A stretch of DNA of 64,000 nucleotides from Chthoniobacterales bacterium (GTDB lineage: Bacteria; Verrucomicrobiota; Verrucomicrobiia; Chthoniobacterales; UBA10450): contig JACDGS010000015.1 in the NCBI GenBank assembly GCA_013821455.1, positions 1 through 64,000 on the forward strand, in the 5' to 3' direction. Position numbers and translations under genes: made by a program. The notes beneath the pieces are model-generated. The model ran no database searches and was not told the origin of the DNA. It saw only the letters and a list, made by a program, of their open reading frames with translations. Each line of letters opens with the position of its first letter. Within the stretch, counting starts at the first letter, position 1. Below, piece after piece: positions 39,094 through 45,621 of the stretch.

Positions 39094-39513
39094 TTACAGA
39101 TAGATTTCGTCCACAGATTTAGCAGATTTACACAGATTTTCGGAGGGGCCAAAGACAAGGCGCTTATGCTCAAGGCTGCTAGACCCAAAGTTTAAGAGCA
39201 AACCGCGATGAAGACCGGTCGCCTTGAGTTCGTTGATAAGTTGCGCTTCGTCGGCGCTCGTTAGGCGGGAGATGGCTTTCGTCTCGACGATGATATTTTC
39301 GAAACAGATGAAATCGGCACGATAAGCGCAGGTCAGGAGCTTACCCTTGTAGCGAATTGGCAGGGCGACCTCAGCCTTGAAAGGAATCTTACACTCCTGA
39401 AATTCCAAGGCGAGTGCAGTCTGATAGACCATTTCAAGAAACCCGCGACCTAACTGTCGATGAACCTCCATCGCCGCGCCAATAATGGCAAAGGTCTCAG
39501 GGTCTTTCTCCAT
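39094..39513 (-). CDS. GxxExxY protein (PDDEXK-like) inside a TIR-bounded element
   Basis: Protein of 139 aa. [22 protein letters not shown] gives the GxxExxY signature, with a nuclease-like core [18 protein letters not shown] (D, ExK). The function of the family is unknown. The gene is bounded by a 33-bp inverted repeat (39108-39140 and 39519-39551), and its C-terminus is encoded by the left repeat ([14 protein letters not shown]). It separates metK from ahcY. It carries the only octamer word (39258) between 37.3 and 41.0 kb. Confidence 0.85.
39108..39140 (+). repeat. Terminal inverted repeat, left end of GxxExxY element
   Basis: Reads CGTCCACAGATTTAGCAGAT..., matching the reverse complement of 39519-39551 with two differences over 33 bp. 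Confidence 0.85.
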
Positions 39514-41892: not shown

Positions 41893-43971
41893 ATGGCCCC
41901 GGACGCTGAACCGGATTTGAAGCTTGAAATAGCACACATCCTAACCATTGATGTGGTCGCTTACTCCACGCTGCTGATCAACGCGCAAACTCGCCTCATG
42001 CAGGCGCTAGTGCAGACGGTGCGCTCGACCCCGCGGTTCCGCGACGCCGAAGCCGGAGGCAAACTGATCCGGTTGCCGACCGGAGATGGGATGGCGCTCG
42101 TTTTTCTTGACGACGCCGAGGCGCCGCTGGAGTGCGCCATCCAGATCGTCGAAGGCTTGCGCGAGCATCCGGAAATAACTCTGCGCATGGGAATCCATAG
42201 CGGAGCGGTTAACACCATCCGTGACGTCAACGACCAATCAAACGTCGCGGGCGCCGGCATCGACATGGCGCAGCGAGTGATGGATTGCGGCGATGCGGGT
42301 CACATTCTGGTTTCGAAACGCGTCGCCGACGATCTCGCACCGCACCCACGCTGGAATCGGCATTTGCATGACCTTGGCGAATGCGTGGTCAAACACGGAC
42401 GCCGGATAGCGATTTATAACTTCTATTCCGACTCGTTAGGCAACCCCGCAACGCCGTCAAAACTGCAATGCGCCGCGACAGCGCCACCCCCGCCTCGATC
42501 GCCAGCTAACCGGAATTGGGCGGTGGCTGCCGTCGTTCTTCTTTTGCTATCCCTCTTCGCGGCTGCTTTCTTTTTTTTTGGCCGCTCTTTCCCTCCAAAA
42601 CATTCGGTCGCCGTTCTCCCGTTCGCCGACGCCAGCCCGGCCAAGGATCAGGAATATTTTAGCGATGGGATTACGGAACAAATCATCAACTCAATCGCAA
42701 AGGTTCGTGGGCTCTTCGTTGTCGGTCGAACCTCCTCTTTTGCTTTCAAAGGCAAGAATCAAGACGTGAGGCTCGTGGGACGAAGCTTGAACGTTAATTA
42801 TGTCTTAGAAGGAAGTGTTAGTCGTGCTGGGGGCCGCTTTCGCGTCGATGCGCAGTTAGTCACGACTAGTCAGGGTTATCAGGTCTGGTCGAAGAGTTAT
42901 GACTCAAACGAGAAGGATATTCTGTCGTTGCAAAGCGACGTCGCGCAGAAAGTCGCTTCGGCCTTGCGCGTCGAGATGGGTATTACCGAGAGTCAACAAG
43001 TTGCCAGGGCGCCGACCTATGATCCCGAGGCCTACGATTTCTACCTTCGGGGGCGTTATTTGCTGAACAAGCGCACGCCCGAGTCAGCCCAGAGTGGGCT
43101 ACAGTTTTTCCAGCGCGCGGTACTGAAGGATCCGCGCTTTGCTTTAGGTCATGCCGGCATCGCCGATGCCAATATCCTCTTAGGGAAACTCGGCGTCCTT
43201 TCCGCAGCCGAAGCAGCTACGCGCGCGCGTCCCGAGGTGTCCAAAGCGATTGCGCTCGATGATCAATTGGCCGACGGCTACGTCGCGCGCGGCACATTGC
43301 TTACCGACTTCGATTGGAACTGGCCAGCGGCAGAATTGGATTTCAAGAAAGCCATCGAACTCAATCCTAGCAGTGCGGCCGCTCATCATTGGTATGCGCG
43401 GCACTTAGCGGAGTTAGGCCGCTTTGGGGAAGCGCAGCACGAAATCGAAGCGGCACAGAAAATCGATCCACTCTCTCCTGCGATCGCAGTTTCCAAGGCT
43501 AAGATTCTTCTCGTCGCCCAGCAGCCCAGAGAAGCGATCGACGCCTGTAACCGCGCTCTTGAGATAGAGCCAAATTTTGCTTCTGCTTATTCCCTTCTTG
43601 GCCAAGCCTATTCCTTAAACGGCGAGCACGATAAGGCCATTGCTGCCGTGACGAGATATGTGCAACTCTCGCGCGATTCTGGTTACGCCAATCTAGAGCT
43701 AGCGTATGCCTATGTCATGGCTGGAAATACTAAAGAGGCCGATCGCATTGTGCATGACGTTACAACTGCAGGAAAGGCGTTTTCCCCTTACGATATGGCA
43801 ACGATTTATTCAGCAAGGTCTGACCTACAAACCGGCTTTCACTGGCTCAGAGAAGCCGTGCGCGGTCATTCGGTCGATTCGGTTTGGTTGCGCGTAGATC
43901 CGCGTCTTCGTAATCTCCAAGCGAATAGCGAGTTCACTCGACTCTTAGATCGGGTGCAGGCGAGCCGCTAA
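41893..43971 (+). CDS. Class III nucleotide cyclase-like protein with FlgO/TolB-N-like domain and TPRs
   Basis: Protein of 692 aa. N-terminal ~185 residues: class III cyclase fold with metal Asp in LTIDVVAYS and GDGMALVF, and transition-state Arg in GAGIDMAQRVMD, where the usual Asn is Asp, so activity is uncertain. One membrane helix (~residues 213-233), then HSVAVLPFADASPAKDQEYFSDGITEQII, the same FlgO/TolB-N-like module as in the kinase at 28141, and C-terminal TPRs. It is a single gene. Signal and partner unknown; likely couples a periplasmic assembly to nucleotide signalling. Confidence 0.82.
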   Translation: MAPDAEPDLKLEIAHILTIDVVAYSTLLINAQTRLMQALVQTVRSTPRFRDAEAGGKLIRLPTGDGMALVFLDDAEAPLECAIQIVEGLREHPEITLRMGIHSGAVNTIRDVNDQSNVAGAGIDMAQRVMDCGDAGHILVSKRVADDLAPHPRWNRHLHDLGECVVKHGRRIAIYNFYSDSLGNPATPSKLQCAATAPPPPRSPANRNWAVAAVVLLLLSLFAAAFFFFGRSFPPKHSVAVLPFADASPAKDQEYFSDGITEQIINSIAKVRGLFVVGRTSSFAFKGKNQDVRLVGRSLNVNYVLEGSVSRAGGRFRVDAQLVTTSQGYQVWSKSYDSNEKDILSLQSDVAQKVASALRVEMGITESQQVARAPTYDPEAYDFYLRGRYLLNKRTPESAQSGLQFFQRAVLKDPRFALGHAGIADANILLGKLGVLSAAEAATRARPEVSKAIALDDQLADGYVARGTLLTDFDWNWPAAELDFKKAIELNPSSAAAHHWYARHLAELGRFGEAQHEIEAAQKIDPLSPAIAVSKAKILLVAQQPREAIDACNRALEIEPNFASAYSLLGQAYSLNGEHDKAIAAVTRYVQLSRDSGYANLELAYAYVMAGNTKEADRIVHDVTTAGKAFSPYDMATIYSARSDLQTGFHWLREAVRGHSVDSVWLRVDPRLRNLQANSEFTRLLDRVQASR

Positions 43972-44026: not shown

Positions 44027-44431
44027 ATGAAACGTAATAACGACGTAAAGTGGAAGAGGTTGATAAAGGAACTAGTCTCGTTAAAGAAAGGCACGAAACG
44101 TTACTCGGCAATGGTGAGAAAGGTTCTGGACAGGCTAGCTTCTCTAGATGATCGAACCGATCCTCTAACGCTCAGGGGTATGTTGGATGAATTGGAAAAT
44201 GACGTAGCATTCAGGGGGCGCGTATTTGATGTGTTTCAACTGAATTTGTCAGAAAGAGATTTTCATCGCTATCTTAGGAAGCTTTACAACCCGTCTCCCG
44301 AGGAACTTGTTGAATTGCAAATGATCGATTCGCCAGTCGACCCTGAAGCGAATGGAGCGGTCGGAACGCTCGCGTGTACTGATCATACGCGACTCGTCCT
44401 ACCCAGTATCATAAGAGATATTTTAACCTGA
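44027..44431 (+). CDS. Small unknown protein, possible partner or substrate of the LanKC-like enzyme
   Basis: Protein of 134 aa, highly charged and helical over its first ~95 residues (KRLIKELVSLKKGTKRYSAMVRKVLDRL), then a change to a small Gly/Ser/Thr-containing tail with a single Cys (GAVGTLACTDH...). No family is recognised. It overlaps the extended reading frame of the downstream lanthipeptide-synthetase-like gene. Leader-plus-tail shape and position would fit a RiPP precursor, but an N-terminal piece of the downstream gene separated by a frameshift is an alternative. More AT-rich than neighbours. Confidence 0.5.
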   Translation: MKRNNDVKWKRLIKELVSLKKGTKRYSAMVRKVLDRLASLDDRTDPLTLRGMLDELENDVAFRGRVFDVFQLNLSERDFHRYLRKLYNPSPEELVELQMIDSPVDPEANGAVGTLACTDHTRLVLPSIIRDILT

Positions 44432-45621
44432 GACTTGCCCAAGGTTGGAAGCTTCATGTTTCGGCGACAATTCTGTCAAGTGGCAGGGTTTTGGCGCAAG
44501 TCGATGAAATTGTTAAACGAGAACGGGTTCCTTATAAGTATATTATCGACCCGCATCAACTGCTGGTAATCAACTCAGGCTCGTTAGGCTTCTCTCAAAT
44601 TGGAAAATTCATCACGATCTATCCTCGTTCAACGAAGGAAGCAGTGAGGTTGGCGGAGATGTTACATTGTGCCACACTCGGGCTAGCAGGACCCAAGATT
44701 CCTTTTGACGCCCGATTCCGACCCGGCAGCTTGGTCTATTATCGGTACGGTTCCTTTCGCGGCACTCGTGCGAAGCCAATTGGTTATATCCGCGGCCCGG
44801 ACGGGAAGTTGCAGCGTGATCAACGCGGCCCAAAGAGCGCGGTGCCACCGTGGTTGGACGATCCCTTTCCGAAAAGGCGCAAGCCAAGACGTTCGTTAGG
44901 CCCGATCGGTCGCGATTATCTGGTGGTGAACGCGAAAGCACAGCGCGGCAAAGGCGGCGTTTACGAAGCGATCGATCTTTCGGTCGCGCCCCCGCGGGCA
45001 GTTATCATCAAGGAAGGACGACGCCACGGTGAGACCGATCGCGATGGCAAGGATGCGCGGCAACGCCTGCGACATGAAGGGAAAGTCCTTCGACACTTAC
45101 GCCACGCTGGGCTTCCGGTACCGGAGGTCTTTCGTGAATTCATCCAAAGCGAGAATCGCTATCTCGTCATTGAGATGATCGACGCCCGGCCTCTCCTAAC
45201 CGCGAAACAGTTAGGGCCGACGCCGGCCTCATGGAGGCGCGCGGACAAGATTCTTCGACAACTCGCTCCGCTGCTTCAGCAACTGCACGCTGCTGGCTGG
45301 GTTTGGCGCGATTGTCATCCGTCGCATCTCTTGCTGCAGCGCGGACAAATATGGCTGATCGATTTCGAAACGGCCTGCCGCCCTAACGAACGACGCATCT
45401 CGCCCTGGGGCTCGGCAAACTATCTTCCGCCGGGTTACCGCGACAAGACTTACCGTTCGGCCGGGACCTTGGAGGACGACTACGCGCTAGGCGTGCTCGC
45501 GTTCCAAGCTATGTGCGGGGATTTGCCCCCGCCGACCTTTCGGAGGCGGTTTAAATTCTACAGACGGTCTCATTGTCCCTCCCACCTACTCGATCGCATA
45601 GAGAATTTGTTGCGATATTAA
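44428..45621 (+). CDS. Class III lanthipeptide synthetase-like lyase-kinase lacking the LanC cyclase domain
   Basis: About 397 aa if begun at CTG 44428; the track start is TTG 44491. Family homology begins before 44491: the in-frame upstream sequence reads AQGWKLHVSAT, the conserved start of the LanKC/RamC lyase domain. It continues VPYKYIIDPHQLLVINS, GKFITIYP, GPKIPFDARF and YYRYGSFRG. A kinase-like domain follows (AVIIKEGR, RDCHPSHLLL, LIDFETA). The protein ends after the kinase, so the usual ~350-residue LanC domain is missing. No standard start codon lies in the open stretch 44383-44490, so start choice, coupling to the upstream gene or a frameshift is unresolved. Expected chemistry: phosphorylation and elimination on Ser/Thr of a peptide, without ring closure. 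Confidence 0.72.
   Translation: MRLAQGWKLHVSATILSSGRVLAQVDEIVKRERVPYKYIIDPHQLLVINSGSLGFSQIGKFITIYPRSTKEAVRLAEMLHCATLGLAGPKIPFDARFRPGSLVYYRYGSFRGTRAKPIGYIRGPDGKLQRDQRGPKSAVPPWLDDPFPKRRKPRRSLGPIGRDYLVVNAKAQRGKGGVYEAIDLSVAPPRAVIIKEGRRHGETDRDGKDARQRLRHEGKVLRHLRHAGLPVPEVFREFIQSENRYLVIEMIDARPLLTAKQLGPTPASWRRADKILRQLAPLLQQLHAAGWVWRDCHPSHLLLQRGQIWLIDFETACRPNERRISPWGSANYLPPGYRDKTYRSAGTLEDDYALGVLAFQAMCGDLPPPTFRRRFKFYRRSHCPSHLLDRIENLLRY

Follow-up and report, generated by a model that had tools for sequence, protein, structure and literature searches.

What can an enzyme do that joins a lanthipeptide-type lyase domain to a kinase domain but carries no cyclase? The question is raised by a locus in a Chthoniobacterales soil bacterium (Verrucomicrobiota; GenBank assembly GCA_013821455.1), which we analyzed within a window of 64,000 nucleotides of contig JACDGS010000015.1. 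A sequence-only reading had described a LanKC-like lyase-kinase preceded by a leader-like small protein, here called ORF1, and had suggested that the two might form a dehydration-only RiPP pathway, or that the kinase-lyase might modify a protein partner. Both open reading frames (ORFs) lie where that reading had put them (Table 1). Our best reading is that the two belong to a dehydration-only RiPP pathway whose enzyme is a new form of class III/IV dehydratase, with a chemistry that we infer from the comparisons below.

Table 1. Features of the lyase-kinase locus in window coordinates
Feature	Position	Strand	Basis or remark
TPR protein with cyclase-like N-terminus	41893..43971	+	directly upstream of ORF1; role uncertain
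ORF1, precursor-like partner, 134 aa	44027..44431	+	profile of relatives' upstream small ORFs
ORF1 residues 47-127, helical leader-like part and core start	44165..44407	+	precursor-profile alignment
Putative core CTDHTRLVLPSIIRDILT (boundary inferred)	44375..44428	+	Cys117-Thr118 is the conserved element
Lyase-kinase enzyme frame	44428..45621	+	CTG 44428 is the earliest candidate start 5' of the catalytic motif
RamC_N phospho-Ser/Thr lyase domain	44437..44889	+	PF25816, E 2.4e-40, model 33-186 of 191
Protein kinase domain (DFE motif) at the C-terminal end	44914..45618	+	PF00069, E 3.4e-14

The enzyme retains the lyase and kinase residues of lanthipeptide synthetases

The motifs by which the enzyme had been assigned to the class III lanthipeptide lyases, AQGWKLHVSAT, GKFITIYP, and VYYRYGSFRG, are present, and the RamC_N match is far above chance; about the first 30 model positions are missing from it. 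The kinase domain that had been placed after the lyase domain was also recovered. Comparison with lanthipeptide synthetases in the PDB gave E values of 1.6e-32 and weaker, with 8car (CuvL) and the ThurKC entries as the best matches, and a structural model of an intact relative (mean pLDDT 81) was closest to CuvL and ThurKC over both lyase and kinase. In NCBIfam, the enzyme scored 307 of 650 bits for LanL and 243 of 575 bits for LanKC, and the first half of the models alone was matched. A role as a defense kinase (PD-T4-6, MAD6) was considered and rejected, as the PADLOC and NCBIfam matches are confined to the generic kinase part.

Mutation of K65, H67, K94, K108, K117, D152, R163, or R191 in ThurKC affects dehydration (PMC10604976). 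Seven of these eight lyase residues, K65, H67, K94, K117, D152, R163, and R191, are kept in the window enzyme according to our alignment and fall on positions conserved in its family (K62, H64, K91, K114, D148, R160, and R186 in A1 numbering); the eighth, Lys108 in ThurKC, is Gly in the cyclase-free enzyme. Lys251, Glu273, Asp351, and the DFE motif of the kinase are invariant in 14 sequences and also in a set of 21 that includes the window. The dN/dS of the enzyme is 0.16-0.20.

Cyclase-free enzymes form a lineage of their own

The LanC domain had been reported as missing from the gene and its surroundings, and our searches agree: the frame stops at 45621 after the kinase, lpdA follows from 45685, 63 bases on, and no LanC domain was found in the enzyme gene or elsewhere on its contig. 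The enzyme has the lyase and kinase domains of LanKC and LanL and resembles their dehydrating half; because it has no LanC domain, we file it as neither. The sequence-only reading had named two findings that would speak against it, a downstream LanC domain lost by frameshift and homologues in which both ORFs form one protein. The first is ruled out, because the enzymes of relatives from the same GTDB family are uninterrupted proteins, about 420-500 aa long, in which nothing follows the kinase either; 22 homologues from six phyla likewise stop there. As for the second, no homologue joins the two ORFs; their frame relation varies among loci, and no good slippery site was apparent by eye.

A scan of 85,462 species, with one genome per species, added cyclase-free enzymes from Cyanobacteria (FACHB-502), Acidobacteriota, Propionibacteriales, Myxococcales, and another verrucomicrobial subdivision, as well as two Thermomicrobiales enzymes that are about twice as long and have LanC motifs. 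A Salipiger plasmid provided one further cyclase-free member. A maximum-likelihood tree set apart 23 cyclase-free enzymes, including that of the window, from 7 LanC-bearing enzymes, with support of 99.8/100 for the separating branch. Judged by this tree and the shared end after the kinase, the enzyme belongs to an old cyclase-free lineage and is not a broken LanKC. RamC_N was detected in 2 of 388 genomes sampled across the phylum, both from the window's GTDB family; a search within that family detected it in 18 of 83 genomes.

A cyclase encoded elsewhere in the genome might still act in trans, which would make this an ordinary class III/IV lanthipeptide pathway. The host does have one LanC-containing protein, its only LanC-like match, a LanM-like class II ORF of ~950 aa on another contig (G000:C54, L068), and one relative (G004) has two LanC-like ORFs of stand-alone size. 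However, LanC-like proteins are absent from 11 of 13 related carrier genomes, one of them estimated to be 100% complete, and from 4 of 6 distant carriers. This alternative is thus largely refuted, and we regard it as very improbable.

ORF1 belongs to a family of small proteins encoded next to the enzyme

Conservation of the gene pair in other genomes had been proposed as a check, and the pair is indeed conserved: in relatives, a small ORF, at times in two copies, lies immediately upstream of the enzyme in at least 11 chthoniobacterial loci and also in Alphaproteobacteria, Cyanobacteria, and Actinomycetota. Single-sequence searches with ORF1 in 98 relatives gave matches at chance level only, and a profile alone succeeded. 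Built from 15 small ORFs upstream of relatives' enzymes, with the window left out, the profile matched ORF1 among the window ORFs with an E value of 2.3e-6; none of the other window ORFs and none of 300 ORF1 shuffles was significant. It also picked ORF1 from the 2287 ORFs of all loci (E 3.7e-6). When iterated over these ORFs at E 0.01, it recruited solely ORFs immediately upstream of an enzyme, namely ORF1, two from Salipiger, one cyanobacterial, and one from Propionibacteriales, which together span four phyla. Two further upstream ORFs, an acidobacterial one and a myxococcal one that ends in poly-Thr, were borderline only. By these profile comparisons, ORF1 is a real partner of the lyase-kinase. 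A different origin for ORF1, in which it would be the enzyme's own N-helix in a displaced position, was considered from a resemblance seen by eye between its KWKRLIKEL...RYS and the RHWLALVKKL...CYS of relatives and rejected, as alignment gives it no support and the small-protein profile fits far better.

As the earlier description of the 134-aa protein had it, ORF1 has a single Cys, at residue 117, and a Thr immediately follows. That description had overlooked the conservation of this element: across 14 chthoniobacterial partner proteins, the core Cys is the one invariant position of the alignment and the next Thr is near-invariant; in ORF1, dehydration is predicted at Thr118. Translation from an internal ATG at 44111 would yield a protein of 106 aa, nearer the length of the relatives. 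The structure model of ORF1 is confidently helical up to about residue 96 and of low confidence over residues 109-118, and a fold search with it gave no match (best E 1.6). A search of its own genome found ORF1 to be the only copy. The dN/dS of the small protein is about 0.13-0.17, with dS near saturation.

ORF1 has the features of a leader-plus-core precursor: by the profile, its family is conserved next to the enzyme and shares a leader, and its core offers a conserved Cys-Thr for modification. The distant partners have Thr-rich cores, CTCNSTTVTTTTSPICTGTTTTGSG and CTCHSRTVITTSTPLCTTTTTTTSA in Salipiger and poly-Thr in the cyanobacterial and Propionibacteriales proteins. Leaders of three distant partners match the NHLP clan model (NF038399) weakly (E 2e-4 to 0.011, 15.8-21.2 bits), all below the curated cutoff of 40 bits and so outside NHLP family membership; ORF1 and the chthoniobacterial members have no match to this model.

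The partner family was not found in a second verrucomicrobial enzyme clade (L082, L083, and L088 to L090). Upstream in two of these loci (L082, 7588-7770; L090, 6918-7106) is another conserved small ORF, KLIRLDDLIPKQDVTGGRQLLFGVTDTTQ, which is GG-leader-like, and several TKLSDLTPKKDARGG small ORFs also occur on these two contigs and on that of L083.

The gene pair is an optional cassette at a fixed place

The precursor and enzyme genes adjoin genes for TPR proteins and lie downstream of an ArsR-methyltransferase gene. Every chthoniobacterial locus that extends far enough has a TPR gene in this upstream position. Four relatives lack the enzyme (G010, G039, G044, and G052; L131 to L134); in these, the pair was not found at the same synteny, and in G044 and G052 the downstream TPR gene directly follows the methyltransferase gene. 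The precursor-enzyme unit is therefore an optional cassette at a fixed place.

These surroundings bear on an alternative function, a protein modification or signaling module in which a single Thr of a small regulatory protein is phosphorylated, or irreversibly converted, by the kinase-lyase, and the protein itself stays uncleaved and inside the cell. Consistent with such a module, the chthoniobacterial partners are protein sized with one conserved Cys-Thr, the neighbors are TPR and cyclase-like proteins, and no protease or transporter was seen next to the pair. Moreover, one genome fuses the small protein to the TPR protein, where it can be read as the C-terminal end (L058, 1-981; L075, 694-981). 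However, these genomes commonly carry such TPR genes, which leaves their role uncertain, and the partners of distant relatives, with NHLP-like leaders and Thr-rich low-complexity tails, have the usual shape of RiPP precursors. We consider a signaling module unlikely.

Farther upstream, at window positions 39094-39513 on the minus strand, an ORF for a GxxExxY-like small protein was seen by eye between metK-like and ahcY-like genes.

A dehydration-only pathway is proposed

Our preferred interpretation is that ORF1 is probably a leader-plus-core precursor and the lyase-kinase its dehydratase, together forming a dehydration-only RiPP pathway that converts Thr to dehydrobutyrine (Dhb). The enzyme would recognize the helical N-terminal part of ORF1, and its kinase domain would phosphorylate core Thr residues, the Thr of Cys-Thr here and many Thr residues in distant relatives. 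The RamC_N domain would then eliminate the phosphate by beta-elimination to leave Dhb. With no LanC-type ring closure, the product would be a dehydrated peptide or small protein, to which a thiol might perhaps add spontaneously or through another enzyme. The sequences themselves establish the domain composition, the catalytic residues, the lack of LanC, the descent, and the pairing; from these we infer the identity of the substrate, its binding and dehydration, the fate of the Dhb, and the role of the product. The sequence-only reading, which had offered a dehydration-only RiPP or a protein partner, is supported, with the chemistry a matter of prediction.

The RiPP-like shape of the distant partners, a weakly NHLP-like leader followed by a Thr-rich core, supports the precursor interpretation. 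Several observations count against the proposed pathway: the short chthoniobacterial core with one conserved Thr is unusual for a RiPP, no protease or transporter adjoins the pair, the second verrucomicrobial clade is without the partner family, and the window enzyme is missing N-terminal codons and a standard start (see below). A broader proposal, to which we give somewhat less than even chances, is that these pairs constitute a separate multi-phylum class of dehydration-only RiPPs, with a cyclase-free RamC_N-kinase dehydratase and NHLP-like precursors. Poly-Thr would become poly-Dhb in distant members, and in Chthoniobacterales a protein-sized precursor would carry a single Cys-Dhb.

Comparison with known dehydratases

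LanKC and LanL enzymes (CuvL, ThurKC, CurKC, PneKC, and SalKC) share with the present enzyme a homologous RamC_N domain and kinase, the same catalytic residues, and a nearby gene for a leader-bearing small partner. They differ in that the LanC-like cyclase domain is theirs alone, they fall in a separate lineage of the tree, and class III leaders are unlike those of the partners. He et al., in 2023, reportedly described class VI lanthipeptide synthetases of Streptococcus. According to a review (PMC10676316), class VI synthetases have truncated cyclase and lyase domains and are known from streptococci only. They resemble the present enzyme as reduced LanKC-like enzymes acting on a short precursor, but that description sets them apart, since the lyase is complete in relatives of the present enzyme and the cyclase is wholly absent. 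Dehydration without a LanC domain is also known from class V lanthipeptide, thioamitide, and kintamdin biosynthesis, where a kinase and a HopA1-type lyase act as a pair (LanK/LanY, KinD/KinC; PMC9415263, PMC9486802). Those pairs are two separate APH-like and HopA1-like proteins accompanied by further cyclizing enzymes, whereas here a single RamC_N-kinase protein is found.

NorKC/LanKCHbt was considered as a cyclase-less precedent and set aside, as the abstract describing it gives no sign that the cyclase is absent. No description of a cyclase-less LanKC was found in the literature searched, mainly open-access papers. Genome mining for lanthipeptides has taken LanC-domain proteins as its anchor (e.g., PMC7268733), and mining keyed on this domain would pass over the cyclase-free lineage. 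If the pairs work as proposed, they would offer a minimal dehydratase from nature whose substrates are defined, give access to peptides with a high content of electrophilic Dhb, and allow a clean test of the role of the LanKC lyase-kinase without its cyclase. The range of class III-type dehydration would also widen to include Verrucomicrobiota, Cyanobacteria, and Alphaproteobacteria.

The window copy of the enzyme may be impaired

A further feature that the sequence-only reading had missed is a problem at the 5' end of the enzyme gene. No ATG, GTG, or TTG precedes the first catalytic residues (Lys and His); the first standard start, TTG 44491, lies inside the lyase domain, 3' of AQGWKLHVSAT. 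CTG 44428 is the sole candidate start before this motif and overlaps the TGA of ORF1 as CTGA. From the precursor stop to QGWK there are 8 bp in the window versus 95-164 bp in 11 chthoniobacterial relatives, so that some 30-50 codons are missing, including the N-helix and a W-x-Y-S-R segment. The loss of this segment may have impaired the window's own copy.

It could be that the copy is a decaying gene in which a deletion took the start and the N-helix, so that nothing functional is made here even though the copies of relatives work. This explanation concerns the window copy only and is compatible with the dehydration pathway proposed for the family. In addition to the short spacing and the missing start, it is favored by a His in the catalytic loop of the kinase, two residues past the catalytic Asp, where relatives have Lys, and by gene remnants in two genomes. 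The remnant in G054 (L066, 6212-6592) combines a cyclase-like N-terminus with a piece from the C-terminal end of the kinase, and that in G018 (C182) is an enzyme-gene fragment with a TGA, which together indicate that the enzyme gene can decay. Against decay, the remaining 394 codons are open with all other invariant residues kept, and differences between the window and L078 are concentrated at third positions (252 versus 123 and 94). Non-ATG starts are, moreover, normal in the clade: an in-frame ATG before QGWK is found in none of 11 chthoniobacterial enzyme genes (L069 to L079), nor in the window, with GTG or TTG in its place, and L077, like the window, is without any of the three. Weak starts are therefore usual here, but the deletion is not. 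We give decay of the window copy a nearly even chance.

The partner genes, in contrast to those of the enzymes, start with ATG in 12 of 14 cases, mostly with a good ribosome-binding site. This difference may keep the enzyme low relative to its substrate.
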